From positions 1-60,464 of the IMG/VR virus record IMGVR_UViG_3300037014_000313: a DNA stretch of 60,464 nt; one strand, given 5' to 3'. Below the pieces are notes generated by a model. That model was not told the origin of the DNA. It did no database searches and saw nothing but the letters and a program-made list of their open reading frames with translations. Positions 5,010 to 60,464 of the stretch are shown in pieces. How positions within the stretch are numbered: position 1 is the stretch's first letter; every line of letters starts with the position of its first letter. The DNA is from a virus. The translations under genes were made by a program, and so were the position numbers.

Positions 5010-5438
5010 GTGGATGCCAACAAGTTTCCGGTGCTGTCCAACGAGGAGCTGAAGTCGGGTTTGGAGCGGTTGCCGTGCTGGAAGGACGCGGTGCTGATGG
5101 CGATCCTGGTGCCGTACTACAATCTCGTCGAGTTCAATGCGCTGTCGCCGAAGGATGAGAACGGGGGCAAGACCATCGCGGGCGTGCTCCAGCTCATGGG
5201 CCTGATCGAGCAGGATCTGTCGCGGCGGTTCAAGATGAGCGTCCGCGGGAAGCAGTTCATGCGGTGGGCGATCGACTCCAGGATCATCACCCCCTACGAC
5301 GGCGCCGACTTCATCGTGAAGTACGGTGGCGAGTTCGGGCGCCGGATCATGTACGACTGCGTGTTCGTGCCGTCGTCGACGCCGGCCATCCCCGATGACG
5401 TCAAAGCCGAAGTGGCGGCAGAAGTCTCCAAGGCGTAG
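5010..5438 (+). CDS. Hypothetical protein (142 aa)
   Basis: The GTG start at 5010 is chosen because GGAAGGGAG sits seven bases upstream; an in-frame start at 4953 would overlap the upstream gene and lacks a site. The protein is helical in its first half (ELKSGLERLPCWKDAVLMAI) and has a Tyr/Phe-rich C-terminal half. No known domain. It ends directly at the palindromic element. Confidence 0.65.
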   Translation: MDANKFPVLSNEELKSGLERLPCWKDAVLMAILVPYYNLVEFNALSPKDENGGKTIAGVLQLMGLIEQDLSRRFKMSVRGKQFMRWAIDSRIITPYDGADFIVKYGGEFGRRIMYDCVFVPSSTPAIPDDVKAEVAAEVSKA

Positions 5439-5612
5439 GTTGCGCAGGATTGTAACGACTTTGCGCAGAACGATAACAGAATTCGTTGAGAGAAAGACAG
5501 TCGACTTCCGAAACAGGATGGAGTCGAATTTTTCGACTCCGACCGAGCCCATCCTGAATCGGAAAGTGCGGAGCGTTTTCTCAAGTAATTCTGTTACGAT
5601 CCTGCGCAAAGT
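5439..5612. repeat. Long imperfect palindromic intergenic element, copy A
   Basis: The segment holds a copy of TTGCGCAGGATTGTAACGAC (5441-5460). A longer arm at 5460-5494 is inverted at 5576-5610; 28 of 35 positions match. Inner arms (CGAAACAGGATGG at 5509-5521; CATCCTGAATCGG at 5550-5562) and a central AGTCGAATTTTTCGACT hairpin complete a cruciform-like structure. About 80 bases of the left half align with the element at 44.3-44.6 kb. Origin, MITE-like element or regulatory site are all possible. Confidence 0.8.
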
Positions 5613-5670
5613 CGATGCAAAGTCGATGCGCGGCTCGGTTCGGAGCCGTATGCTTGGAAAGGAGGGGTAT

Positions 5671-6102
5671 GTGAGCGAGCACGTCTTTTTCATCGCCGGA
5701 AGGATCACGAGCGACAACAAGGGGCGCAGGATGCGCTGGCAAGCCCGCTACTCGAAGGAAAAGAAGGCACGAGAGGTTTGGGCCATACAATTCCAAGCGA
5801 TCGTTCCTAGGGCCATCCTGGTCGATTCTCCGCACCGTCCAAGGGCGATTACCCTCAAGGTCTTCAGGAATCGATCCCTCGACTGGGACAACCTCGTGGC
5901 CGGCCTTAAGCCGTTCATCGACGTCCTCAAGTGCAAGTTCTTCAAGGGGAGGACCTCTGACCCCAACATGCTGACCTGGAGGGGGGTCATCTACGACGAC
6001 AGCCCCAAGTACGTGACCTGGAATGTCCCACAGCGTACAATCCACCCATCCGAGGGTCCGTGGAAGGAGGAAGGCGTGGAAGTGAAAGTGGAGGGTATAT
6101 GA
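5671..6102 (+). CDS. rusA: RusA-like Holliday junction resolvase (143 aa)
   Basis: GTG 5671 follows AAAGGAGG; the frame is open further upstream through the palindrome but no better start exists. The motif LDWDNLVAGLKPFIDVL (residues 70-86) followed by GVIYDDSPKYV (105-115) gives the acidic residues D71, D73 and D109/D110 expected of RusA nucleases. It would cleave four-way junctions during phage recombination or before packaging. Its length is normal for the family. The next gene's ATG overlaps its last codon. Confidence 0.85.
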   Translation: MSEHVFFIAGRITSDNKGRRMRWQARYSKEKKAREVWAIQFQAIVPRAILVDSPHRPRAITLKVFRNRSLDWDNLVAGLKPFIDVLKCKFFKGRTSDPNMLTWRGVIYDDSPKYVTWNVPQRTIHPSEGPWKEEGVEVKVEGI

Positions 6103-9417: not shown

Positions 9418-9615
9418 CTATTCCTTTTCAAGACGACGATGGATGGCGTTCATGGCGGTTTCGACGGCAACCTTTTCCTCGGTCGTGAGGTCTTCGGAGG
9501 TTGTAATTGCGGAGAGTCTGTCTCCGTCTTTGTAGACACGGACAACCTTCTCGCACGCCCCCATGGCGGCCATGCACAACTCGGTGCAGTCGTAATCGTA
9601 CTTGTAGGTTGCCAT
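9418..9615 (-). CDS. Small hypothetical protein (65 aa)
   Basis: ATG 9615 follows GGAGACCTACTGAA, where the ribosome site and the upstream stop overlap. The sequence is mixed alpha/beta with three cysteines and an amphipathic C-terminal helix (TEEKVAVETAMNAIHRRLEK). No family recognised. It lies between the tail fibre and the membrane-protein pair. Confidence 0.6.
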   Translation of the reverse strand: MATYKYDYDCTELCMAAMGACEKVVRVYKDGDRLSAITTSEDLTTEEKVAVETAMNAIHRRLEKE

Positions 9616-9616
9616 T

Positions 9617-11221
9617 TCAGTAGGTCTCCACGACGCACACGGTATCGGAACATCCTGTTGACACAGCGGTTTGAAGCTTGAGCGAGACGTCGTCGTTGGC
9701 GGCGAAGCTTGCGCTCACGGCATCGATCGACGCCAGCGTGTTCAGTCCTGTCAGGCTCACCGTAAGGGTGGTGTCGACTCCGTTCTTTCTCACGGTCCAG
9801 GTGTCGGTCTTGCCGACTCCTGGGGGCGTCTGGCTGCGGGCGTGCAGTTTCTTGATAACGCATTTTCGCGGAACGTTAAGCTTGATCTCGGTCGCCGTGA
9901 CCGCGGCAGAACCGGGACGGTAGAATCTCGTGGCATTCGAAGGCGAGCCGCCGGGATCCGCCCAGACGATGGAGAACGAGATCTGTGTCGCCGTGAACCC
10001 ATAGCCATTTGCGTTGGAATGGATGAGATCGATCTGGCCCAGCTCCATGTTCCCCAGGGTCCTGGACACGTCAGCGAGATCTCCATCGGCAACGCCCGTG
10101 ACGGCCCCGAGGAGGCAGCCGGCGAAGTTGGTCTCTATGGCGATGGCATCGATTCCGCCGTGGACGACCCAGTTGCAGTCCCTGACGAAGAAGTTGGAAG
10201 CGGAGACGTTCTGGAGCAGGGCCCGCTTGACTCCGCTTCCTGTTGAATTCACGGTGACTGAACTGGCGTGGATGGCATTGACTTCGCGTGCGGGCATGCC
10301 CGTGCATTGGACGAGGATCCCGGTGACGTTCGAAGCGCCGGGCCCGGCGCCGGAGTTGTCGATTTCGAGATCGACGTGATCCACCTCTGCGGTCAGATTT
10401 GTGGTGCCGCCGAACTTGATCCCCGTCAGCGTGTAATGCCCGGCAGAGGTGAGTTCGAGCTCGAAGTCCTGGATGTACGAGTTCTCACCCATCGTGACAA
10501 GGGTTGTGTCGGCCGTGACGTTCAGGAGCTTGATCCGACAGACGGCTTCGGAGACTCCACGAAGTGAAATACCTGTTGGAATCACAAGCCCGCCCACTGG
10601 AGGCGTATAGATTCCAGGCATCACCAGAACCGCATCCCCGGAGATCGAAGCCGCAAGCGCGGCCTGGATGGTTTGGAATGGGCGTGTCGTGTCTTCTCGG
10701 GCGCCCGTGGCGTCGTTGCCGTAGGTTCCGTCGACGATCGTCAGGTTGCCGCGAAGAAAGGCGGTGGGGCCCAGGTATTCGGATGGCGTGAACCACTTCG
10801 TGGTGCCGTCGTTGTCGATCCAGACCGAACGATACTGCGACACCAGGTCCTTGTAGGCGGCGCCGTTGATGGTGTCGGTGGCATTCTGGATCCTGACGTA
10901 ATTGGCCGAGGCGTCCATCTTCATGATGGCGTACTGCCGCCCCGGCTCGTCGACGGCCTTCGGGATCGTGATCGTGACGTTCCCAGCCGTGGCGTCCACG
11001 GGGATGAAGAAGTCGTTGACGGTGGCGATGTAGTCGGCGGTCTGCGGCCTGACTTTCGAGATCGACAGCAGCGCCTCCACGAGGGCCACGCCTTCGAGCG
11101 CCATCTGATGCCAGCCCTGGGGCTTGGGATAGAGGAACTTGTTGCCGGCAACGAGGCCTGAAGTGGGGGTCTCCTGCTCCAGGCGATCGATCAGGGCGTC
11201 AACGTGTCTCTGGTCCACCAT
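9617..11221 (-). CDS. Tail fibre/spike with a beta-helix domain (534 aa)
   Basis: The N-terminal region (residues 1-150) looks like a virion-attachment part. YGNDATGAREDTTRPFQTIQ and AALAASISGDAVLVMPGIY are typical of phage fibres with a right-handed beta-helix, and repeated Val/Ile/Asn rungs follow to about residue 420. The C-terminal 100 residues form a beta-sandwich-like tip (TWTVRKNGVDTTLTVSLTG). Probably a receptor-binding fibre. Its start overlaps the upstream stop by one base. Confidence 0.75.
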   Translation of the reverse strand: MVDQRHVDALIDRLEQETPTSGLVAGNKFLYPKPQGWHQMALEGVALVEALLSISKVRPQTADYIATVNDFFIPVDATAGNVTITIPKAVDEPGRQYAIMKMDASANYVRIQNATDTINGAAYKDLVSQYRSVWIDNDGTTKWFTPSEYLGPTAFLRGNLTIVDGTYGNDATGAREDTTRPFQTIQAALAASISGDAVLVMPGIYTPPVGGLVIPTGISLRGVSEAVCRIKLLNVTADTTLVTMGENSYIQDFELELTSAGHYTLTGIKFGGTTNLTAEVDHVDLEIDNSGAGPGASNVTGILVQCTGMPAREVNAIHASSVTVNSTGSGVKRALLQNVSASNFFVRDCNWVVHGGIDAIAIETNFAGCLLGAVTGVADGDLADVSRTLGNMELGQIDLIHSNANGYGFTATQISFSIVWADPGGSPSNATRFYRPGSAAVTATEIKLNVPRKCVIKKLHARSQTPPGVGKTDTWTVRKNGVDTTLTVSLTGLNTLASIDAVSASFAANDDVSLKLQTAVSTGCSDTVCVVETY

Positions 11222-27682: not shown

Positions 27683-27814
27683 CTATCCGTACTGGATCAG
27701 CGTCAGGGCACCACTCCTTACGACGAGAGCATAGTCGAGGATGGGGCGCCCGCATTTCCTGCACGCGAGGAGGCCATCGATGAGCTCGATGGGCTCACGA
27801 TGCTCCTTGCACAT
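27683..27814 (-). CDS. Small zinc-ribbon protein (43 aa)
   Basis: ATG 27814 overlaps the upstream methyltransferase stop by one base (TGATG), so it is probably coupled. MCKEHREP and ACRKCGRPILDYAL give CxxH and CxxC half-sites. It resembles small zinc fingers found between portal and protease genes in Mu-like phages, where the Com regulator is also of this size, but the match to Com is not strong. Confidence 0.55.
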   Translation of the reverse strand: MCKEHREPIELIDGLLACRKCGRPILDYALVVRSGALTLIQYG

Positions 27815-29259
27815 CAGGCGAACTTCACTTCCAAGATCAAGACCTGGGGGTCTTTGGATCTCTGGATCCTTCGCGGCTCCTGGAACGGCTTCCATTCTTC
27901 CACCTTGTAGCAGTAGAGCTTTTTGTTGGTGTCGTCGAAGTTGACCGAGACCTGGTGCTCTGACTTTCTGCGCTCGAACTCGATCGGGGTGATCGTCTCA
28001 GGCTGCGACAAGACAATCTCCCCGAGAGCCATGGCGCCTTCAATGAGAAGCATGGTTCTCCCGGAGATGTCCATCTGCGACGTCTTCACGATCGCCTTCT
28101 TCTTGCCGTCGGCAATCATCTTCCCGTAGGGGGCTTTTAGGACGAGCCCGTTGATGACGTCGGGCTGCCCGTCTTCGTCCGAATACCACATCAGCAATTC
28201 AGAGAATTTGTTCTTGGGGTCGATCGGGAAGTTCGCGGCTAGGATCTCCGTCCTCTTCTTCCCACTCGTGCGGTGCTCGAATGATCCTGACTGGATCGGC
28301 GTCCTGACAAACTTGATCTCGAGCTTGCTCAGGCGCTCCCTGTTGCCGGGCGTGTCGTCATACGACACCATGACTTTGCCCTTGGTGCTCGAAGCCATCT
28401 GCGCGAACTTCTTGTGATCGAATCCCGTTTCTTCCAGGATGAGGGAGGGGTCGAGATCGCGCTCATACGGGGGGTCCATGTAAAAGAACGTGGACGGCGA
28501 ATCGTACTTCTTGATGACGTCCACGAAGTCCATATTCTCAACGATCACGTTGCGAAGACGCTCCACGTACTGGGGAAGCTTTCTCTCGAGCCAGCTCTTG
28601 CAGTTTTCGATCGTCTTGTCCGGCTTGAATCCGAATCGAAGCCCGGTGTTTCCCCGCGAGAACCTCTTCAGGTAGAAAAACCGGTAGAACCGCTTGGCCG
28701 GCGACAGCCTGGCGGGGTCGAGCGCCTTGACCTTCATGAAGTATTCTTTGTTGTTGTCCCATGGCATAGACAGGATTTCTTTCGCGTCTTTCCCGGTTGC
28801 GGTCTTAAGGAATGCGTACCCAGCCGCGATGTCAGGGTTCTTGTCGTTAAGCACCTCGCGCTTCGATGGCGTGGGCCTGTAGAAAAAGACTGCGGCGCCG
28901 CCGGCAAAAACCTCGACGTAGGTTTCGTGAACGGGGATCAGGGGAACAATGACGGGCGCAAGCCATCTCTTGCCGCCAGGAGAACCCCATGCGCCGGACC
29001 TCACACCACCTTCTGCGAAGATATCCGCCTCGAGGCCCAGTTCGTCCTCCATGTACTCGGACAGCATGGACATCTTTTTCATCCTGTCCATGAACTCGGC
29101 GTAGGTTTCCAAGCCTGGGACCCCCATCTCCTTCTTCATGCCGAGGACGCACTGCTCGAATTTGGCGTCACCCCAGCCGTGCTTCTTCTGCATGGCGCGG
29201 CACACGGCCCAGGGATTGACGCCAGATTCCTTGATCTTTTCCTTCTCTGAGTCGGTCAC
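27814..29259 (-). CDS. Dam-type adenine methyltransferase with extra N- and C-terminal domains (481 aa)
   Basis: Residues 13-46 (GVNPWAVCRAMQKKHGWGDA and a further Cys) resemble N-termini of phage head-cluster proteins. The D12-class N6-adenine methyltransferase core follows: WGSPGGKRWLAPVIVPLIP (motif X), EVFAGGAAVFFYRP (motif I, about 116-129) and FFYMDPPYE (motif IV DPPY, 262-265). After about residue 370 is an extra domain (GLVLKAPYGKMIADGKKKAI) that looks ASCH-like. Its place inside the head operon is unusual. Confidence 0.8.
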   Translation of the reverse strand: MTDSEKEKIKESGVNPWAVCRAMQKKHGWGDAKFEQCVLGMKKEMGVPGLETYAEFMDRMKKMSMLSEYMEDELGLEADIFAEGGVRSGAWGSPGGKRWLAPVIVPLIPVHETYVEVFAGGAAVFFYRPTPSKREVLNDKNPDIAAGYAFLKTATGKDAKEILSMPWDNNKEYFMKVKALDPARLSPAKRFYRFFYLKRFSRGNTGLRFGFKPDKTIENCKSWLERKLPQYVERLRNVIVENMDFVDVIKKYDSPSTFFYMDPPYERDLDPSLILEETGFDHKKFAQMASSTKGKVMVSYDDTPGNRERLSKLEIKFVRTPIQSGSFEHRTSGKKRTEILAANFPIDPKNKFSELLMWYSDEDGQPDVINGLVLKAPYGKMIADGKKKAIVKTSQMDISGRTMLLIEGAMALGEIVLSQPETITPIEFERRKSEHQVSVNFDDTNKKLYCYKVEEWKPFQEPRRIQRSKDPQVLILEVKFA

Positions 29260-33288: not shown

Positions 33289-34551
33289 TTAGGCGTCGTT
33301 TCTCAAGGTGACACGGATCTTCATCTTCTGCACGGGATAGAGATTGAGATCGTCGAACAGGTTGACGTCCTGGTAGCCGAGATATCCTGAGCCATCGGGA
33401 TCGACGTTGACCTCGTACTCCCACGTCTCCGGAAGGGTGTCGCTCTTGTCCTTGTCGAGAATGCCCGCAGGGCCACCTCCGGCGCCACCACCCAGGTTGG
33501 CGTAGTCGTGGATGGCCAGGAGCTTCCGAATCCTCTGCGGCGTCACCAAATCGAGCTCGAACTCGACCGAGCCTTCCGTGTAGCCGGTGGCCAGGACCCA
33601 GTCGCCGTTGACATCCTGCTCGACGCTGGATGCGGGGCTGACGACACCAGCGTCCCAGATGGCGCCGTTGTAGTTTTCGCTGCAGCCTTCCCCGAATTTC
33701 GAGTAGGCCCCGAGGATCTGGCCCGAGATGGAGGCCGGAGTCGTCTTCTTCGTCATGTAGACGCGCCTGGCCTGATCCAGGAACTGAGGATCCGCGGAAA
33801 CTGAATCCAAGTCCATTCCAGGAACCGCGGCCTGCCACGCCGAGAGCGACGTCTTGTCCACTGCGGACTTGGCGCACTTGCCGGCACCGAAGTCGATGTC
33901 GTTCGTCCCGGAGGCGGAGTATCCGTAGGAATAGAGATGGTAGGTGTTGTCGTGGAAGATGCAACGCCTGACGAGGTGTGTTGAGTTGGCGCCTCCACCC
34001 CTCATCCCATAGAGATTGTCAGAGAACGTGCAGTTGTAGGCGTAGGCGGTTTCTCCATACGTCCCGCCACCATTGTAGGCGCCAGCCTGGGTGAGGTGGT
34101 GGAACAGACAATTGGTAACGACGATGTAGATGTACCCGTTCGTGTTCGAGAAAATCCCGTATGGCATGTCCTCGAAGATGCAGTTGTTGAATATGCCTCT
34201 CTGGGAGCTTGAATTTCCGGCAGAGGGCATCAGGAATCCTGCGTTCGTGTAATTCCTGAAACGGAATCCGTTGAACGTCAGGATTCCGGCAGAATTTCCG
34301 GTGGTGCCGGCCGTGATCGCGTTCGCGAGCGTGCTGTTGCCGTCCATGATCGCGAAGCCGACCGCGGTGAACGTCAGTGACTTGCTCTCGATCGGGACGT
34401 TCACGGCCTCGTTGAACACGCCCGTGCAGAAGAGAACGTCGGTGCCAGCTGCCGAGGACACCAGTGCCGCGAGGGTCTTCTTGGCGTTGGCCCAGGACAA
34501 GCCATCGTTGGCGTCGTTCCCGTTCCTGGCATCCACGTAACGATTGGTCAT
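33289..34551 (-). CDS. Beta-helix tail spike-like protein, copy 1 (420 aa)
   Basis: The N-terminus NRYVDARNGNDANDGLSWAN is the pectate-lyase-like/parallel beta-helix opener found in many phage spikes. Residues about 60-210 contain Asn/Gly/Cys-rich rungs (ILTFNGFRFRNYTNAGFLM). The C-terminal 100 residues form a discoidin-like domain that ends VQKMKIRVTLRN. It is a paralogue of the next upstream gene; no hydrolase catalytic triad was assigned. Confidence 0.75.
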   Translation of the reverse strand: MTNRYVDARNGNDANDGLSWANAKKTLAALVSSAAGTDVLFCTGVFNEAVNVPIESKSLTFTAVGFAIMDGNSTLANAITAGTTGNSAGILTFNGFRFRNYTNAGFLMPSAGNSSSQRGIFNNCIFEDMPYGIFSNTNGYIYIVVTNCLFHHLTQAGAYNGGGTYGETAYAYNCTFSDNLYGMRGGGANSTHLVRRCIFHDNTYHLYSYGYSASGTNDIDFGAGKCAKSAVDKTSLSAWQAAVPGMDLDSVSADPQFLDQARRVYMTKKTTPASISGQILGAYSKFGEGCSENYNGAIWDAGVVSPASSVEQDVNGDWVLATGYTEGSVEFELDLVTPQRIRKLLAIHDYANLGGGAGGGPAGILDKDKSDTLPETWEYEVNVDPDGSGYLGYQDVNLFDDLNLYPVQKMKIRVTLRNDA

Positions 34552-34563
34552 CGAATCCTCGCT

Positions 34564-35844
34564 TTACATGTCACGCCGGAGAGTCGCCTCGACCTTGATG
34601 GCCCAGATGCCAGTGAGGTTGAGATCCTCGTTGATGTTCTTCGCCGTGAACGCGCCGAACGCGATCCCATCCACGGACGTCGCGATTCTGTACTCCCACG
34701 TCTCGTATCCGAGAGGGATCGTCTTGTCGTAGTCCAGGACGGACGTGGGCCCGCCTCCGGTCCCAACCATAAGGCCGCCGAAGGTATGCGACAGATTCAG
34801 CTTCCGGATGTTGAAGAGACCGCCGAAGTCGATCTTGAACGTGATGGCTCCGACGTCGTATCCATCGGCGAGAACCCAGTCCCCGTTCGAGTTCTGGATG
34901 ACGCTTCCCACGGGACTCACGGAATCCGGGGTGTCCCAGACGGTGGCGTTGAAGTTGTCGCTGCAGCCGTCAGCCAATAGGAGGTTGTATGCCCCGAGAA
35001 TCCTGGCGTCGATCACCGCCGGAGACGTATTCTTCAGACGATGAAGATTCTTGGCCTCGTCCAAGAACAACGGATCCACCGAGATTGAATTCTGGTCATA
35101 TATGGCGATTGCCGCTTTCCACGCAGACAGGCTTGTGTACGCGCCCCCAAAGTAGAGCGTGTTCGACCCCGTGAAATCGTAGCAGTTGAAATCGAACGGC
35201 CCGGCCCAGTACCCGGCAGTGACTGCATAGATCATATAGCCGGGGATGTTGTGGAAGATGGACCTTAAGACTGCTACGGAGGTGCCAGTGGCGGGCCAAT
35301 GCCTGATTCCGTTGCCGCAATTCACAAACGTGCACTGACTGACGCGGTAAGTGATCTGGCATCCTGATCCTTCCACGTAGACTGCCCAAAGACGGCACCC
35401 CCTCATGATCGTATTTGTCAGCGTAAGGGGTACAATGGGACCGCTACTGGCTGGCATGTACATTCCATAAGGAATACCCTCGACAATACAGTTTTCGAGG
35501 GTAACACCACCGCCATTTCCAACGAGGTAGAAGCCGATGGAATAGAAATTTCTAAACGTAAAGCCTACGAACTTCAGCGTTCCCGCTCCTACGCCTGTCA
35601 GCGTAACACCAGTGGGCAAATCGAGCTGGCCATCCAATATGGCAAAGCCTACAGCCTGGAAGGTTATTGATCCTTTTGTGTTCCACGGATAGAAAACAGC
35701 TTCATGGAAGACGCCAACGCAATAGATGGTATCTCCCGTAGAGGCGGCAGTAACAGAGGAGCCCAGCGTCTTCTTGGCGGTCGCCCAACTCAACCCATCG
35801 TTTGAGTCGTTACCGTTTCTGGCGTCGGCGTAGCGATTTGCCAT
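34564..35844 (-). CDS. Beta-helix tail spike-like protein, copy 2 (426 aa)
   Basis: It starts NRYADARNGNDSNDGLSWAT, nearly the same as the adjacent spike, and shares the C-terminal IWAIKVEATLRRD-type end. The middle rungs differ strongly, as expected if the outer surface adapts to different receptors. The DNA is slightly more AT-rich in its middle part, consistent with a swapped module. Confidence 0.75.
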   Translation of the reverse strand: MANRYADARNGNDSNDGLSWATAKKTLGSSVTAASTGDTIYCVGVFHEAVFYPWNTKGSITFQAVGFAILDGQLDLPTGVTLTGVGAGTLKFVGFTFRNFYSIGFYLVGNGGGVTLENCIVEGIPYGMYMPASSGPIVPLTLTNTIMRGCRLWAVYVEGSGCQITYRVSQCTFVNCGNGIRHWPATGTSVAVLRSIFHNIPGYMIYAVTAGYWAGPFDFNCYDFTGSNTLYFGGAYTSLSAWKAAIAIYDQNSISVDPLFLDEAKNLHRLKNTSPAVIDARILGAYNLLLADGCSDNFNATVWDTPDSVSPVGSVIQNSNGDWVLADGYDVGAITFKIDFGGLFNIRKLNLSHTFGGLMVGTGGGPTSVLDYDKTIPLGYETWEYRIATSVDGIAFGAFTAKNINEDLNLTGIWAIKVEATLRRDM

Positions 35845-39142: not shown

Positions 39143-40284
39143 GGCATCGGATCCTTCGGCGGCGGAATCGGCGCCACGGGGAAGACGAACGGCGCCTTCA
39201 GCGAATTCTGCGTCGGCTGGGAGTCCTCATTGTGCACGGGGAACTCGGGGTCCGGAGGCGTCAGGTCGGGGTGCTCCCCGGGTTGGAACTCGACACGGCG
39301 CCCTTCCTTCTGGGGCATCCTGTCGCTCACCAGGCTCGCCATCTCCGCAAGCCCCATCATCTTCGCGCGCTCGATGTCCTCCTCCATCTCCTCGAGGTCG
39401 TCGGGAGTCGTGATGGAGCTGCCGCCGTCGCCCTTGTTCAGGCCGCTGATGATCGCGTGCAGCCGGTGCGCGATGATCTTCGAGTCCAGGGCCTTGATCT
39501 GCACGCGCGCGATCGCACTCAAAGCACGGGCCTTGCCGATCGGGATCCAGTTCTTGTAGACGGCAAAGTTGACACGGCTCAGGAAGTCCATCACGTCCTG
39601 CGCGTTCTTGAAGAAAAAATTCTCCTTCGACAGGTCCTGGAACTGGCTGACCTCCTCGTCCATGATCTTGCGCGCCTTGTTCTCCTCGCGCTTGTCCACC
39701 CAAAACTGGACGTGCTCGCGACAGAATGGCGCCGTCCCGCTCCACCTCTCCTTGATGCACACCTCCCGCTTCTCCACGGGATCAATGTGCTTGCACTTCC
39801 CCCACCCCAAATCAGGACGCTGGTACGCGAGGACGTCGTCGCCGCCGGCGTTCTTCATCACCGCGCCAGCCACCAGGGTGGCTTCGGCAGTCTGTCCTCC
39901 ACTCCCGACATCCCTCACCTTCGGCGGACGGCCGCGCTTCTTCTTGATCTCGCCTTCCTTCGAAGGCTCAACGCCAGCACGCTCCTGGTTCATCGCAACC
40001 TCCATCTCCCTCACGGCGGCGTCAAGCGAACGATGCGGAATCGGACTCGCCTCCGAAGGAATCCTGTCCTTGTCGATCTTGCCGCCGGCGTACATGTTCA
40101 TGCGCATACGGCCACGCACCTTGCCGGCGGTCTCAAGCTCCCCTGTCCCCGCCACCAGGCCGTCTTTGCGCGTCGTGCCGTGAATCTGCGGCGGACTGCA
40201 TGTGAAACAATACATCCGCCCACGCGATGCGCATCGGAACTCGTTCCCACAGGCGGGACAGTTGCGGCGCAGGGGACGGCTCAT
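39139..40284 (-). CDS. Zinc-finger and AT-hook protein (381 aa)
   Basis: ATG 40284 after GGAGAG. The N-terminus has CPACGNEFRC and YCFTC (residues about 9-30), a zinc finger. KKKRGRPPK (about 114-122) is an AT-hook. The C-terminal half is helical (GKARALSAIARVQIKALDSK) with an acidic end. DNA binding is likely. A terminase small subunit or late regulator is possible from its position as second gene of the late operon, but unproven. Confidence 0.6.
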   Translation of the reverse strand: MSRPLRRNCPACGNEFRCASRGRMYCFTCSPPQIHGTTRKDGLVAGTGELETAGKVRGRMRMNMYAGGKIDKDRIPSEASPIPHRSLDAAVREMEVAMNQERAGVEPSKEGEIKKKRGRPPKVRDVGSGGQTAEATLVAGAVMKNAGGDDVLAYQRPDLGWGKCKHIDPVEKREVCIKERWSGTAPFCREHVQFWVDKREENKARKIMDEEVSQFQDLSKENFFFKNAQDVMDFLSRVNFAVYKNWIPIGKARALSAIARVQIKALDSKIIAHRLHAIISGLNKGDGGSSITTPDDLEEMEEDIERAKMMGLAEMASLVSDRMPQKEGRRVEFQPGEHPDLTPPDPEFPVHNEDSQPTQNSLKAPFVFPVAPIPPPKDPMP

Positions 40285-40339
40285 GTCAGACTCTCCACGG
40301 ATTCCGATCCCCGACACGGGAGATCAGATGCCCACGGCA

Positions 40340-40823: not shown

Positions 40824-41259
40824 ATAGAAGAAGGGGTTTCAAAGTGGCGGCTAGGCCCTTGGAGAATTCACCAGAAAAAGCCCGCGAGAAGGGTTTTTGG
40901 GGAGTGGACCGTGGAGTCAAAATTTTCCCAGACCCTTCCTGAAGGGCATTATTCTTTGTGATCCTGTGATGAAACTGCGCAGAGAGACTTTGATTTTCCG
41001 GGGGACGGGATTTGATTTTTCTGGGCGGGGAATGAGTTTGAACTACCCCCCCCTGGCAGACCCCCTATCTGCGGGAATATGGGGAGAATTCAGCTGCGGG
41101 CAATGGGTAAATCGGAATTTGACGTATACAAAGCGTGGATATGGCAGTTCTTTAGAAAGGAGCTCGAAAAGAATGGCGTACTAAACGACACAGAAAAATA
41201 GGTGTATATGGATCAGATACTTCGAAATGCGAGGTATCCGCGACAACGGAGAATCCTGT

Positions 41260-42023: not shown

Positions 42024-42107
42024 GGATCCAGGTCCCAATCCTGTCGGATACGTAGATGCGACCACTTTTCAATGAAGAACATTTCCTCTTTTTTAAGGAG
42101 CTGGCGC

Positions 42108-42386
42108 ATGGGCGTTTCCATGAAGGCCAAGTTCCTGTACCTGGACAGCGTTCTGGCATTCCGTGAGCATCAGGCTGACGTGATGTCCAATCTGGACGCT
42201 GAAGCGGTCAGGAATGCGGCGGCGGTGCTTCTGAAGGCGAGTCGGGACATCTCCCTCAAGATGGGGGAGGACATCAGCATCGTGGTGACGGCGACGGGGG
42301 GGCATAAGCACGTTGACTTCCGCAATGCCACAGTGGGGGTCCACAACCATCTTGGGGGCGTGATTCATTCCGAGACCATCCGTTAG
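42108..42386 (+). CDS. Small early protein (92 aa)
   Basis: ATG 42108 follows TTAAGGAG with good spacing. It is helical in the middle (SNLDAEAVRNAAAVLLKASR) with a His-rich C-terminus (GHKHVDFRNATVGVHNHL). Function unknown. Confidence 0.65.
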   Translation: MGVSMKAKFLYLDSVLAFREHQADVMSNLDAEAVRNAAAVLLKASRDISLKMGEDISIVVTATGGHKHVDFRNATVGVHNHLGGVIHSETIR

Positions 42387-42396
42387 GCAGTCACCC

Positions 42397-42414
42397 GGCC
42401 CACGGTCGTGGGCC
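42397..42414 (+). promoter_or_regulatory. Intergenic hairpin leader 1
   Basis: GGCCCAC/GTGGGCC with a 4-base loop, 11 bases after a stop codon and followed by GGATGATTCC and GAAAGGAG. It belongs to a family of hairpins before early genes. Confidence 0.6.
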
Positions 42415-42451
42415 TGGATGATTCCCTCCGGACTTTGAAAGGAGATGCGTC

Positions 42452-42589
42452 ATGTACAACCTCTGGATCGTTCTTCCATGCGGATGCATCCGCAACGTGT
42501 GGACAAAGGGCCGTCTTCTCGGCGATCTGTGCGTCAGTCTTCCGCATTCATTTTCCGCCACTGGTTTAGTCGCGACCCATTACCATTAA
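42452..42589 (+). CDS. Small MYNLWI protein, copy 1 (45 aa)
   Basis: ATG after GAAAGGAGATG. The first 20 residues, MYNLWIVLPCGCIRNVWTKG, are closely matched by the next gene, so the two are tandem paralogues with a shared CGC motif. The C-terminal half differs. Function unknown. Confidence 0.6.
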   Translation: MYNLWIVLPCGCIRNVWTKGRLLGDLCVSLPHSFSATGLVATHYH

Positions 42590-42613
42590 CAACCATTCCT
42601 TCAGGCAATCCCC

Positions 42614-42649
42614 CGGCCCACGTCCTGGCGATCACATCTTCGTGGGCCG
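42614..42649 (+). promoter_or_regulatory. Intergenic hairpin leader 2
   Basis: CGGCCCACG/CGTGGGCCG stem of nine pairs with an 18-base loop, followed by TGATGACTGCTTTTAAGGAG and the start of the next gene. It is very similar to leader 1. Confidence 0.65.
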
Positions 42650-42676
42650 TGATGACTGCTTTTAAGGAGATGGGAG

Positions 42677-42793
42677 ATGTACAACCTCTGGATCAGGCTG
42701 TCCTGTGGGTGCTCCAAGAACCTGTGGACCAGGGAGTATCAGATCTGCCGCATGTGTATGCCGTTTCCGATCATGCGCTATCCAATCTGGTGA
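42677..42793 (+). CDS. Small MYNLWI protein, copy 2 (38 aa)
   Basis: MYNLWIRLSCGCSKNLWTRE repeats the start of the preceding protein; it ends with a Met/Pro/Tyr segment with two cysteines (QICRMCMPFP). ATG follows TTTTAAGGAGATGGG. Too short for functional assignment. Confidence 0.6.
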   Translation: MYNLWIRLSCGCSKNLWTREYQICRMCMPFPIMRYPIW

Positions 42794-42875
42794 AGAATTT
42801 CCAATCGGGCGGCGAGCACCGAATGTTTCATCACCGGCCGCCGCCCCATTGGTGATTCTTTTAAGGAGATGGATC

Positions 42876-43259
42876 ATGTCCTGGACAGAGTTTCACGACA
42901 TGTCGAGCGGTGGCGGCTCGAAGGAGCCGTGGCGCCACATCGCCATCGAGGCCGTGGAGTCCGAGGCACGGCTGGTGTTCTGGCACAAGTTCGGACACAA
43001 CCCCGACCGTGTGACCTGCACCTGCTGTGGCCCCGACTACTCCGTGATGGAGTCCAATACTCTGGAGGACGTCACGGCGTATGAGCGCAAGTGCGAGTGG
43101 GACAACGACGCACAGGAGTGGGTGGAGAATCAGGACTCCATGCGGCTTGAGGAGTTCCTCTCGAAAGCCAAGGACTGGCTGGTCATCCGTGCGGTAGATA
43201 TCAAGCCCGAGGAGAGGGAAGGGGAAGTGCCCGTCCAAGGCTACGTCTGGCACGAGTAG
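42876..43259 (+). CDS. Hypothetical early protein (127 aa)
   Basis: ATG after TTTTAAGGAGATGG. Contains VTCTCCGPDYSVMESNTLED, giving a CxCC cluster, and an acidic C-terminal half. Soluble; no family recognised. Confidence 0.65.
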   Translation: MSWTEFHDMSSGGGSKEPWRHIAIEAVESEARLVFWHKFGHNPDRVTCTCCGPDYSVMESNTLEDVTAYERKCEWDNDAQEWVENQDSMRLEEFLSKAKDWLVIRAVDIKPEEREGEVPVQGYVWHE

Positions 43260-43281
43260 AAACTTTTTAAGGAGATGGATC

Positions 43282-43434
43282 ATGGCATGGCAAGTGAAGC
43301 GTGTGGTGTGTCCGGGGTGCAAGGGCATCAACTTCCTGAACATCAGGGACCCCAAGAATCCCGGCGTCATCGGGTCCAGGTTCTGTGCCGACTGCAAGCA
43401 CCAGTGGTCGGTGAAGCTGGTTCCGGCGAAGTGA
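43282..43434 (+). CDS. Small zinc-ribbon protein (50 aa)
   Basis: Start MAWQVKRVVCPGCKGINF, then FCADCKHQWSVKL: two CxxC knuckles about 20 residues apart, the classical zinc-ribbon. Strong TTTTAAGGAGATGG site upstream. May bind nucleic acid or RNA polymerase; role unknown. Confidence 0.65.
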   Translation: MAWQVKRVVCPGCKGINFLNIRDPKNPGVIGSRFCADCKHQWSVKLVPAK

Positions 43435-44291: not shown

Positions 44292-44562
44292 ACTTTGCGC
44301 TAGAATCCTACACCGCTTGGCCAGCCCAGCGTCAAGTTTGCGCAGAGTCGTAACGCGGTTGCGCAATCTCATCACAGAATTACTTGAGAAAATGGCAGTC
44401 AACTTGCGAAATGGGATGAGAATTTTTTCGGCTCCGGTTTCGACCAGACTTTTTTCTGGAGCCAAGTATGAGTTCGTCTTGCTCCGGCATTCTCTCAAGT
44501 AATCTTGTTACGGCTCCGCGCAAAGCCGCTGCAATCTCTGCACAACCCTGCGCAAAGTATCC
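44292..44562. repeat. Long palindromic intergenic element, copy B
   Basis: Contains TTTGCGC boxes at about 44294, 44338 (TTTGCGCAGAGTCGTAACG) and 44359, a left arm with ACAGAATTACTTGAGAAAA, a T-rich centre, and inverted arms (TCTCAAGTAATCTTGTTACG at 44492-44511; TGCGCAAAG near 44549). The left half aligns over about 80 bases with copy A at 5.46 kb, including GGCAGTCAACTTGCGAAATG. The gap from 44211 to 44684 otherwise shows no gene. Confidence 0.75.
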
Positions 44563-44684: not shown

Positions 44685-45212
44685 ATGCCCAAGTGCAAGT
44701 GCGGGATCGAACCCGCGCCATTCAGGAAGTACATTGGCGACCTCAAGTTCGAGGACCAGTGCGCTTTCTGCTACGCCAGGGTCTGCGCCACGGATGAGCT
44801 GACTCGTCAGGACGAAGTCAGAAGAAGCACGGTCGATGCCATCGCCGTGATGGAGGAGGCCATCGCGCGGATGCGTGTGGCCAACGTCATTCCCGATCAG
44901 GTCTTGATGGCGACGTGGGACGTCAACATCATCATGAGGGATCACACCAAGGCGCTGAAGTTGACGGGGATCCTGGGTGGTCTCCTGCTGGAGCAGAACT
45001 CGTGGGACAGGCGCCAGCAGTCCGACTGCTCCCCGGACATGACCTACAGAGGCAGGGCCGCCGGAACGGACGCCACCGACATCAAGATCATGGGCGTGCC
45101 GCCGCCGGACACCTGCAGGGTGGAGGTGGAGGAGGTGGAGATCCCAGCGCACAAGCAGAAGAAGTTCAAGGTCGTGTGCGGTGACACCAAGAAGGAGGCG
45201 GCCCATGCGTGA
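44685..45212 (+). CDS. Hypothetical Cys-containing early protein (175 aa)
   Basis: ATG 44685 (another at 44679) after TTAAGGAG. The N-terminus MPKCKCGIEPAPFRK and QCAFCYARVCATDELT resemble a zinc-binding unit; a long helix follows (RRSTVDAIAVMEEAIARMRV). Its C-terminus overlaps the next start by eight bases. Function unknown. Confidence 0.65.
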   Translation: MPKCKCGIEPAPFRKYIGDLKFEDQCAFCYARVCATDELTRQDEVRRSTVDAIAVMEEAIARMRVANVIPDQVLMATWDVNIIMRDHTKALKLTGILGGLLLEQNSWDRRQQSDCSPDMTYRGRAAGTDATDIKIMGVPPPDTCRVEVEEVEIPAHKQKKFKVVCGDTKKEAAHA

Positions 45213-56070: not shown

Positions 56071-56142
56071 ATGGCATCCAATCACAGGGACGGTCCATCC
56101 GCTGGGCCGAGAAGGGAGGTCGATGCAAGGGTTCAGGTCTGA
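56071..56142 (+). CDS. Possible 23-residue leader peptide
   Basis: ATG 56071 has a very strong GGAAGGAGAAATCC site and encodes MASNHRDGPSAGPRREVDAR plus three residues. Its stop lies 17 bases inside the primase start. It might regulate primase translation, or simply be chance. Confidence 0.3.
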   Translation: MASNHRDGPSAGPRREVDARVQV

Positions 56143-59100
56143 GTACGTCTACGTCGACGTACATTCATCGGCGCAGAAGCAATGGCGCCGGGTCAAGATC
56201 GACCAGGTCGATGAGAAGCTGCTGAAGCCATCCAAGAACTTCAAGTGCTTCAAGTCGGTGCAGCGCTACAACAAGGCGCACGCCGAGCCCGGGGAGCACG
56301 TGTGGATGCCGCTGTTCTTCGATCTCGACAACGAGAAGGATCCCGGCATCACCATCGACGACGTCAAGAAGCTGTACGGATACATGACCGAGGTCCTGCA
56401 GATTCATCACCACTTCGTGAGGATGTACTTCAGCGGCAAGAAGGGATTCCACGTCGTCATCGAGCCGGAATGCTTCGACATCAGGCCGCACCACGAGATC
56501 CATCTCAAGATCAGGAAGGCGGCGCTCAACATCTCCGAGCATCTCGACCTGAAGACATTCGACTCCAAGGTCTACAGCGTCAGGCGGGTGCTCAGGATCC
56601 ACAACAGCATCCACGAGGGCACCAAGCTGTTCAAGATCGAAGTCAGCCTCGGCGATCTCGCCAAGGGCATCGACTTCATCAAGGAGAAGGCGAAGCGGCC
56701 ACAGGAGGACGTCACGCCGGAGGAACCCAGCGAGGAGGTCTCAATCTCCCAGGAAGCAAAGGAGTTCTGGGACGGCATCAGGCTTGAGGTCGAGGAAGCG
56801 GAGGAGCTGTCCAACCTCAAGCCGGACCACATGATCCATGACTTCGGCGAGCTGCCGGTGTGCATCAAGCACATGCTGTCGCTGCCGGCTCTGCCGACAT
56901 CCCACTCCGGCAACCGCACCATCCTGTCGCTGGCCGCCTACATGAAGGACATCGGCTGGACGGAGCAGAAGACCGTGGAGACGCTCGTGCCGTGGCTGGT
57001 CAAGCTTCCGAACATCGGCAACGCCGGCAACCCGAAGGCCATCGAGGCCGGCGCCAGGGCCACCATCGCCTTCGTCTACAGGAAGTCCACGGACGACAAG
57101 GGCGATCGCTACCACTTCGCGTGCAAGTACATCCTCGCGCTGTCAACGCCTGATCACAAGATCCCGTGCCAGAACGTCCAGTGCCCGGCCGTGAAGGGCA
57201 AGATGCAGGAGACGAAGGAGACCATCGATCTCAGCCTCGATGGATTCTCGAAGTCCATCTACCTTGGCGAGAAGGTGAGGGTGCCGACGCTCATCAGCGG
57301 AAAGGCCGGCACGCCCTACGTCGTTCCCAAGCGTGTCCGCTTCACCTGTCCTCCGGATGAGGATGGCGAGTTCTGCAAGAACTGCCCCATCGCGCAGTTC
57401 AACGGCGAGGCCAGCTTCGAGTTCGACGTCAAGGACCCCGAGATCCTGGAGATCGTGAACACATCCAACAAGTTCCAGTGGGAAGCCATCAGGAGGAAGT
57501 TCAGGTTCCCACCAGCGTGCAGCCGGTGCAAGACCAGGGTCGAGGAGTACATGAACATCGAGGAGGTGCGGATGTCGCCGGCGGCTGTTGACGTCAGCGA
57601 CTTCCAGAAATCGGAGTTCGTCAACCGCAAGGGATTCTTCATCGGCTATCCCCTGCAGTCGAACAAGCGCTTCATGGTGACAGGGTTTCCGGTGAAGGAT
57701 CCGAAAACGCAGACGTCGGCGTTCCTGTTCCAGGAGCACGAGAAGCTCGAGACCGAGATCGAGACCTTCACGATGACGCCTGAGATCAAGGCCGAGCTCG
57801 AAGTCTTCTGCGCCAAGGAAGGAGATGTCGAGGGCAAGTTCGAGGATATCCACAACGACCTTTCCACGAACGTCTACCGCATCTGGAATCGACGCGACCT
57901 CGCATGGGCCGCGGACCTCGTCGTCCATTCCGTGAGAGGATTCAAGTTCAGATCGGAGCCGTTCGTCAAGGGATGGATCGAGCTCCTGGTTGTGGGTGAC
58001 TCCGGACAGGGGAAGACCGCTTGCGTGCGCCGGCTCGTGCAGGGCCACTACAAGGTCGGAGAGTACGTCAGCGGCGGCGCCAGCAAGCGCACAGGCCTCC
58101 TCTACTCCTACCAGGAGAACGGGAAGACGTGGATGCTGATCTGGGGTGCCATGCCCCTGAACGATCTCGGACTCCTCGTCGTCGATGAATTCGGCGACAT
58201 GGCCGAGGAAGAATTCGCGCTCATGACGGACGTGCGATCGAGCGGGATCGTGAAGGCCGTAGGAGTCGTCACCGCCGAGACCTTCGCCAGGGTGCGCTTG
58301 ATCGCGCTGTCGAATGCGAAGAAGGGCAAGCACCTGGCCGAGTACGATCTCCCGGTCGTCGCCATCAAGGAGCTCGTGCCGGCAGCGGAGGATATCAGGA
58401 GATTCGACTTCGCCCTCTGCGTGGCGTCAGGAGAAGTCCCCGTCGAGACCATCAACAGGGCCGACTTCGAACACGTCCACCACGTCTACACGTCCAGCCT
58501 CTGCCGCAACCTCATCAGGTGGGCGTGGTCGCGCAAGGAGACAGAGGTTGAGTTCACCGACGGCGCGTCGAAGTTCATCCTCCACGAAGCCACCAGGATG
58601 GCCAAGGACTTCTACGCCGGCGACATCCCGCTCGTGGAGCCCGCGGACCAGAGGTTCAAGCTCGCACGACTGGCGGCTGCAGCCGCCGCACGCGTCTTCT
58701 CCACCGATGAGAAGGGCGACAAGATCGTCGTCAAGGAAGAACACGTTGGCTTCATCATGGGACTGCTGTACGAGATCTACAACAACCACAACTTCAAGTA
58801 CGGTGAGTGGTCGCGGACGCAGAGGAAGACGGAGTCGTCTGGAGTCGAAGACCTCAGAGGCTGCCTCGACCGCATCATGGACCTTCCGCAATGGAAACGC
58901 ATCTTCGGTCTCCTGACTCTTCCCGGCCAGATTGACGGCCGCGAAGTCGAAGGCGTCATGAGCGGCGACAGATCCAAGTCCTCCCAGGTGCTGGCCCTGC
59001 TACGAATCGTCGGCCTCGTCGAAAAGAAGTGGGGCAAGTACGCAAAGACGTCGAAGTGCAATCAGCTCGTGAGCTGGGCATTCTTGAATGGACATGTGAA

Positions 59101-59194
59101 GAAGGAAGACATCGAGCGCGAGATGATGGGGCCCGGTGGCGCACTTTCGAATCCCACCGGGCAGAAGACCTTTGAGGAAGGAGGCGATCGATGA
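56123..59194 (+). CDS. Archaeo-eukaryotic primase fused to MCM-like AAA+ helicase (1023 aa)
   Basis: N-terminus: FFDLDNEKD (D67, D69), MYFSGKKGFHVVI (H110) and FDSKVYSVRRVLRIHNSIHE (D147, R154-R158), the DxD, sxH and third motif of PriS-type primases. Centre: zinc knuckles (CPP...CKNC near 409 and CSRC near 467). C-terminal AAA+ region: GDSGQGKT (625-632), LLVVDEFGDM (DE 688-689), and EDIRRFDFAL (R759-R760), matching the MCM arginine finger IRRFD/SRFD. It would prime and unwind phage DNA. No other replicative helicase, primase or polymerase is recognised. Confidence 0.8.
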   Translation: MQGFRSEYVYVDVHSSAQKQWRRVKIDQVDEKLLKPSKNFKCFKSVQRYNKAHAEPGEHVWMPLFFDLDNEKDPGITIDDVKKLYGYMTEVLQIHHHFVRMYFSGKKGFHVVIEPECFDIRPHHEIHLKIRKAALNISEHLDLKTFDSKVYSVRRVLRIHNSIHEGTKLFKIEVSLGDLAKGIDFIKEKAKRPQEDVTPEEPSEEVSISQEAKEFWDGIRLEVEEAEELSNLKPDHMIHDFGELPVCIKHMLSLPALPTSHSGNRTILSLAAYMKDIGWTEQKTVETLVPWLVKLPNIGNAGNPKAIEAGARATIAFVYRKSTDDKGDRYHFACKYILALSTPDHKIPCQNVQCPAVKGKMQETKETIDLSLDGFSKSIYLGEKVRVPTLISGKAGTPYVVPKRVRFTCPPDEDGEFCKNCPIAQFNGEASFEFDVKDPEILEIVNTSNKFQWEAIRRKFRFPPACSRCKTRVEEYMNIEEVRMSPAAVDVSDFQKSEFVNRKGFFIGYPLQSNKRFMVTGFPVKDPKTQTSAFLFQEHEKLETEIETFTMTPEIKAELEVFCAKEGDVEGKFEDIHNDLSTNVYRIWNRRDLAWAADLVVHSVRGFKFRSEPFVKGWIELLVVGDSGQGKTACVRRLVQGHYKVGEYVSGGASKRTGLLYSYQENGKTWMLIWGAMPLNDLGLLVVDEFGDMAEEEFALMTDVRSSGIVKAVGVVTAETFARVRLIALSNAKKGKHLAEYDLPVVAIKELVPAAEDIRRFDFALCVASGEVPVETINRADFEHVHHVYTSSLCRNLIRWAWSRKETEVEFTDGASKFILHEATRMAKDFYAGDIPLVEPADQRFKLARLAAAAAARVFSTDEKGDKIVVKEEHVGFIMGLLYEIYNNHNFKYGEWSRTQRKTESSGVEDLRGCLDRIMDLPQWKRIFGLLTLPGQIDGREVEGVMSGDRSKSSQVLALLRIVGLVEKKWGKYAKTSKCNQLVSWAFLNGHVKKEDIEREMMGPGGALSNPTGQKTFEEGGDR

Positions 59195-59969: not shown

Positions 59970-60464
59970 TGCCGACGAAGGAAGACTACGAGTACGTCAA
60001 GGAACTAAAGGAGCAGATTGAGAGCATGAATTCGTGTCACCAAGGCACAGTCGCGGAACTCGTTGGAATGACCTACGACCGCGACCGCCTCCGCGCCCCG
60101 AACGAGGAGATGCTGGGGATCGTGGAAGCCGTTGGCGAGATGTTGAGGACGAGCAAAGCCATGGGGAAACTGTGGAACGCCGTGGACTGGAACACTGATC
60201 TGGGGGACAAAGACCCGGCGCTGGCCGCTTACAACGCGGCTGGTGAGGCGCACACGGCGGCGTGGGACAAGATGGAGGCCCTGTACAAGGCGTGGACCAT
60301 CGCCAAGGCCGAGGCGCAGACTAGTTCTAACGTGAAACATATTTGCGGCGATCCAAGTTCGTCCTGCGATACGAGTTGCGAGGAAAACGCGGCCCGTGGC
60401 AGGGAAATCATGAACCGCCCGACAGCCGCCGACGCGCTCAAGGCGGTGGCTTGTCTGTGCCAAG
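59969..60464 (+). CDS. N-terminal part of the joint-spanning hypothetical protein
   Basis: Starts MPTKEDYEYVKELKEQIESM, a helical opening; joined across the redundancy it ends at base 367 for about 203 residues. The single difference between the two copies changes Ile to Val in NVKHICGD/NVKHVCGD. Confidence 0.75.
   Translation, partial: MPTKEDYEYVKELKEQIESMNSCHQGTVAELVGMTYDRDRLRAPNEEMLGIVEAVGEMLRTSKAMGKLWNAVDWNTDLGDKDPALAAYNAAGEAHTAAWDKMEALYKAWTIAKAEAQTSSNVKHICGDPSSSCDTSCEENAARGREIMNRPTAADALKAVACLCQ
60214..60464. repeat. Terminal direct repeat, right copy
   Basis: Matches bases 1-251 with one mismatch (A at 60341, G at 128). See the left copy. Confidence 0.95.

Follow-up and report, generated by a model that had tools for sequence, protein, structure and literature searches.

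Paired palindromic iteron arrays as candidate replication origins of phages encoding a primase-MCM fusion protein

The window, i.e., the whole stretch of phage DNA analysed here (60.5 kb), carries two diverged copies of a palindromic element, A and B, which are best read as a pair of cis-acting iteron elements and most likely serve as replication origins. Each copy consists of helically phased short repeats arranged symmetrically around a centre, the two copies are related in sequence, and pairs of the same architecture recur in other phages encoding a fused primase and MCM helicase. How MCM helicases of bacterial viruses find their start sites is seemingly undescribed in the literature searched, which likewise yielded no description of origins of primase-MCM phages or of paired palindromes; as few subscription journals were covered, this absence is no proof of novelty. 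The same simple rule finds a candidate site pair in 23 genomes, including those of cultivable Bacillus and Weizmannia phages, which makes the proposal testable and lets annotators mark such non-coding elements. The system could also provide a compact one-protein model of symmetric MCM loading.

Structure of the elements and their repeat units

Both elements are located in non-coding gaps between plus-strand genes and flank the late operon (minus strand, ~6.9-40.7 kb), consistent with the arrangement described in an earlier note on this DNA. The features referred to below are as follows.

5438-5632: element A, whole array
5438..5492, minus strand: A left arm, five 11-bp units outward, CTCTCAACGAA TTCTGTTATCG TTCTGCGCAAA GTCGTTACAAT CCTGCGCAACC
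5493..5577, no strand: A centre, inner arms and stem GGAGTCGAAAAATTCGACTCC
5578..5632, plus strand: A right arm, five 11-bp units, TTCTCAAGTAA TTCTGTTACGA TCCTGCGCAAA GTCGATGCAAA GTCGATGCGCG
5671..6102, plus strand: gene adjoining A downstream, weak match to RusA-like Holliday junction resolvases (phrog_34, E 0.002)
40952-40984, plus strand: half-array C, three units, TTCTTTGTGAT CCTGTGATGAA ACTGCGCAGAG, between the late and early operons
44336-44557: element B, whole array
44336..44390, minus strand: B left arm, five 11-bp units outward, with an outlying TTGCGC box at 44295
44391..44491, no strand: B centre, its left part aligning with the A centre (CAGTCRACTTSCGAAAYRGGATG), the remainder different
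44492..44557, plus strand: B right arm, six 11-bp units, CTCTCAAGTAA TCTTGTTACGG CTCCGCGCAAA GCCGCTGCAAT CTCTGCACAAC CCTGCGCAAAG
44685..45212, plus strand: gene adjoining B downstream, without known family
56123..59194, plus strand: fused archaeo-eukaryotic primase/MCM helicase, 1023 aa, the proposed initiator

The likeness of A and B, claimed earlier from the sequence, was well above chance, with a local alignment score of 72, whereas 1000 shuffles averaged 18 and did not exceed 36, and A also aligned with the reverse complement of B (score 49; shuffle maximum 39). A whole-genome scan revealed B as the best match to A anywhere in the genome and no third matching place. For palindromicity, A was by far the top-ranked 240-bp window of the genome, and B ranked 5th of 1506 windows under lenient scoring; under strict scoring the value of B was reached by 61 of 1000 shuffles, B being less symmetric than A, and each B arm matches the A arms. 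The GC content of A and B was 48-49% compared with 60% for the genome, an AT-richness that is not strong.

The inverted arms, inner arms and central hairpin reported for A were all confirmed: the inverted arms (5450-5494/5576-5620) span 45 nt with 80% complementarity, the inner arms (5506-5526/5544-5564) are 81% complementary, and the central stem is GGAGTCGAAAAATTCGACTCC. The extent originally given (5439-5612) captured a real palindrome, but the arrays are larger and reach from 5438 to 5632. In B, the arms (44359-44394/44488-44523) span 36 nt with 72% complementarity, and a second pair lies at 44337-44362/44531-44556. Single-strand folding gave z-scores of about -8 for A, as RNA or DNA, and about -3.6 for B. 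Such strong predicted hairpins would suit a structured RNA, attenuator or terminator in the early-operon transcript, but DNA palindromes fold strongly by default, no Rfam match was obtained, and arm identity over 37 positions was 29 within A and 26 within B compared with 26-30 between A and B, indicating no concerted change of pairing partners; an RNA role is thus very unlikely. As arms of one element are no closer to each other than to those of the other element, they behave as separate protein sites rather than hairpin partners.

The arms are ladders of about five degenerate 11-bp units (consensus approximately YTCTSNRCAAA) running outward from a hairpin-prone centre, e.g., TTCTCAAGTAA TTCTGTTACGA TCCTGCGCAAA GTCGATGCAAA. 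Both elements showed an autocorrelation peak at a lag of 11 (p 0.007 for A, p 0.023 for B), as expected of short phased direct repeats, and the identity among 11-bp units was significant at p 0.003 for a period chosen post hoc. Four copies of the core half-site TTTGCGCAGnnnCGTAACAGAATTACTTGAGAAAA are present, none of them with an indel. Half-array C represents a fifth, weaker half-array related to the A and B arms: its position weight matrix score was 19.6, a value reached in 1 of 200 simulated genomes, and the next-best site outside the elements scored below 9. The location of C at the early/late junction suggests that the same reader protein also acts on early transcription.

Recurrence of element pairs in genomes encoding primase-MCM

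Searches of phage and plasmid collections with A and B found no DNA relative of the elements; two short Listeria phage matches (E 0.1) in this DNA search and the sole match of an IMG/VR pattern scan, within a coding region, were taken as chance. IMG/VR searches with the A-adjacent gene, the terminase and the capsid protein also returned no relatives, and relatives were reached via the primase-MCM protein. Under the fixed rule applied, a genome qualified if it contained a palindrome scoring 39 bits or more whose partner match reached 40 bits or more at a distance above 5 kb. With these thresholds, chosen once the first pairs were known, a dispersed palindrome pair was detected in 23 of 32 primase-MCM genomes, compared with 0 of 11 controls (seven capsid-similar phages plus 80alpha, A118, TP901-1 and lambda, all without primase-MCM) and none of the 96 simulated genomes. 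Genomes of the same clade are not independent; the association between pair and primase-MCM would have a Fisher p of 3e-5 if they were. The remaining nine of the 32, including Microbacterium and Arthrobacter phages, failed the rule, and no pair was found at chromosomal primase-MCM loci with 10-kb flanks. A stricter rule demanding strong palindromicity of both copies misses the window itself and G002. In total, 19 genomes from four clades were retained as clean pairs, while the rule-passing G008, G011 and G025 may represent other repeat families. Single large palindromes with no second copy were seen in the controls RDJL1 (HM151342; 32276-32418, 73 bits) and Tedan (MT764845; 38168-38469, 72 bits), and may be control elements of their phages.

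The first relative checked, G002, had its own pair of ~180-bp palindromes with a sequence unlike A and B, and pairs were also present in vB_BboS-125, BSTP5, Youna2 and most tested IMG/VR records. Arm arrays of 8-11-bp repeats were identified in the window (11 bp), the G007 clade (8-9 bp) and BSTP5/Youna2, with arm repeats such as CTTAACATT in G007, AACCTAAC in G017 and TTGTAAGA in G022, and the elements of the BboS clade are AT-rich hairpins without clear iterons. The repeat sequence varies between clades and the two copies inside one phage are alike, as would be expected of sites that track the protein reading them. Between one and three genes of the window recur in each other clean-pair genome, and only primase-MCM is common to all 19, by construction, the genomes having been selected for that protein; the SNF2 helicase and portal genes shared with some relatives were found in controls too. 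The recurrence of pairs in clades otherwise sharing almost nothing suggests that the pair is tied to the replication module, not to general descent.

These results bear on the four roles proposed in the earlier note. An origin or regulator-binding array fits the phased inverted short repeats, the related half-site in front of the early genes and the recurrence of this paired architecture among phages that have little in common except the replication protein. A MITE-like mobile element or a recombination or packaging site would account for the inverted-repeat shape and the two diverged copies, but exactly two copies exist, target-site duplications were sought in the flanks and none was seen, the phage and plasmid collections contain no copies, neither copy lies beside the terminase genes or record ends, and the paired architecture is conserved in other phages with unrelated sequences. 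Both of these proposals were therefore unsupported, and this explanation is extremely improbable.

Among the 19 clean pairs, the distance between the copies is 0.36-0.50 of genome length; one copy usually precedes the helicase gene by 8-15 kb (2-20 kb overall) and the second lies 8-19 kb downstream of it. The elements are mostly non-coding, and their GC content is on average about 19 points below that of their own genome. Elements of the relatives have 14-36% GC. Of the longer primase-MCM loci in which a palindrome could be detected, almost every one has it ~7.5-9.8 kb upstream of the match. Several further repeats were observed in these records, namely GGGGGG/CCCCCC tracts beside AT-rich hairpins in BboS125 (9584-9784 and 40115-40323), G010 and G018, a 298-bp inverted repeat (104 bits) at L071:15039-15336, ~5 kb downstream of where the primase-MCM match begins on a contig of 175 kb belonging to a much larger phage, and tandem repeats of ~138 bp at L025:5511-6451 (G003 record).

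Transcription control was also considered, in which the arrays would be operators of a phage repressor or activator over two operons, with promoters in the centre or outer arms. In line with this, C heads the early operon, A and B are just upstream of plus-strand genes, sigma-A-like promoters occur within the element centres of the Bacillus/Weizmannia phages BSTP5 and Youna2, and a TTGAGT-N17-TATAAT sequence overlaps one arm in G002. However, the copy orientation relative to genes varies, being inverted in BboS125 and direct in G010, two phages in which almost every gene lies on one strand, which speaks against a plain promoter role, and promoters in the left arms would fire antisense. Moreover, homologues of the replication protein occur in the relatives, but none were found there for the genes flanking A and B or for the gene preceding primase-MCM. 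No consensus promoter was found inside A or B, including by an eye check of hexamers, and the results of scans for sigma-70 promoters and terminators in the surroundings of A and B barely exceeded chance. Transcription-control hubs are considered clearly less likely than origins. Origins too often contain promoters, so the two readings overlap, and the promoters in the BSTP5 and Youna2 centres make a combined control region possible.

The primase-MCM protein and the proposed mode of initiation

The primase-MCM protein, encoded in the early region, combines a primase match at the N-terminus with an MCM P-loop domain, and matches archaeal and eukaryotic MCM chains; MCM is otherwise the replicative helicase of archaea and eukaryotes. 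At its C-terminus (approximately residues 897-992), a helix-helix-helix-strand-strand winged helix was predicted with moderate confidence. Structural neighbours of this predicted domain include TubR (iteron-binding and among the best), ArsR and MarR proteins, with VIA-align Z values of ~9-10 that only moderately exceed the usual background, and a Foldseek search with the C-terminal model returned no match below E 0.001. A likeness of fold to TubR, ArsR and MarR is not proof of function. Phage primase-MCM fusions have already been described (PMC5862659), and AEP-MCM fusion proteins in phages and prophages were reported by McGeoch and Bell (2005), as cited in PMC5862659; the proposed initiator is a member of this known group of replication proteins.

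The predicted proximity of the C-terminus to TubR, together with the arrays of helically phased short iterons and a vB_BboS-125 gene annotated as a plasmid segregation protein, could also point to partition sites resembling centromeres (tubC/parC type), with a winged-helix or ribbon-helix-helix protein as the adaptor reading them. In this respect, the 10-12-bp iterons and winged-helix fold of tubC/parC systems are similar, but the arrays here are inverted, and no TubZ/ParM-like partner NTPase was recognised among the subset of window genes scanned. Centromeres of known type tend to occur singly, beside their own adaptor gene, and two distant, nearly opposite copies would be unusual. Partition sites are an unlikely explanation.

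For the preferred reading as replication origins, we infer that the arrays would be bound either by the primase-MCM protein, through the winged helix predicted at its C-terminus, or by a small accessory initiator, and that the symmetry of the element would set two helicase assemblies face to face. The centre would then melt and two forks depart, and the use of both distant copies on a circularised genome may result in copying as two arcs. Through C, located where the early genes begin, the same protein would regulate early transcription. GC and TA skews analysed for one or two origins gave no clear signal; the test for two origins had a combined z of 1.96 as one of six tests, with -0.8 for the window. 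More tentatively, the pairs might represent a widespread and so far undescribed origin type, in which primase-MCM phages fire bidirectionally at two near-opposite palindromic iteron arrays, each loading a symmetric MCM pair in archaeal/eukaryal style.

Comparison with known origins and other features of the window

In archaeal oriC, inverted ORB elements flank an AT-rich unwinding region, and the helicase is MCM. The present elements similarly combine inverted recognition elements around a presumably meltable centre with an MCM-family helicase, whereas their repeats are 8-11 bp and not of ORB length, no Orc1/Cdc6 was recognised, and the host of the window phage is presumably bacterial. Herpesvirus oriL/oriS are origins in the form of large palindromes, present in more than one copy, in which both arms carry initiator sites and the centre is AT-rich; the palindromic shape and multiple copies are alike, but the proteins and sequences are unrelated, making this an analogy only. 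Iteron origins (lambda ori, SaPI, SCCmec Cch2 and RK2/R6K type) likewise contain arrays of short helically phased repeats and have the cognate initiator in the same replicon, as is proposed here for primase-MCM, and AT-rich DNA is shared with most relatives of the window. In SCCmec/SaPI, the initiator is the helicase itself, with a C-terminal DNA-binding domain, which in the SCCmec helicase Cch2 binds iterons of the putative origin (PMC7581432). Different from these, each element here has two facing inverted arrays, the distance between the two elements is 0.36-0.50 of the genome, the proposed reader is a primase-MCM fusion, and the iterons of the window are degenerate.

Several other features of the window were detected. 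A direct end repeat of 251 bp (1-251 and 60214-60464, 99.6-100% identical) reflects either a circular assembly or true terminal redundancy. The early region (plus strand) includes a gene for a C5-cytosine methylase (1393-2985), and at 42091-43290 consecutive small early genes are preceded by five similar leaders (TTTTAAGGAGATGG..ATG). The minus-strand late genes encode terminase, portal, protease and capsid, with a D12 adenine methylase (27814-29259) encoded between portal and protease. Two adjacent late genes have starts (34472-34551 and 35765-35844) that are 79% identical, and one of them has a weak beta-helix match, the pair probably being paralogous surface proteins.
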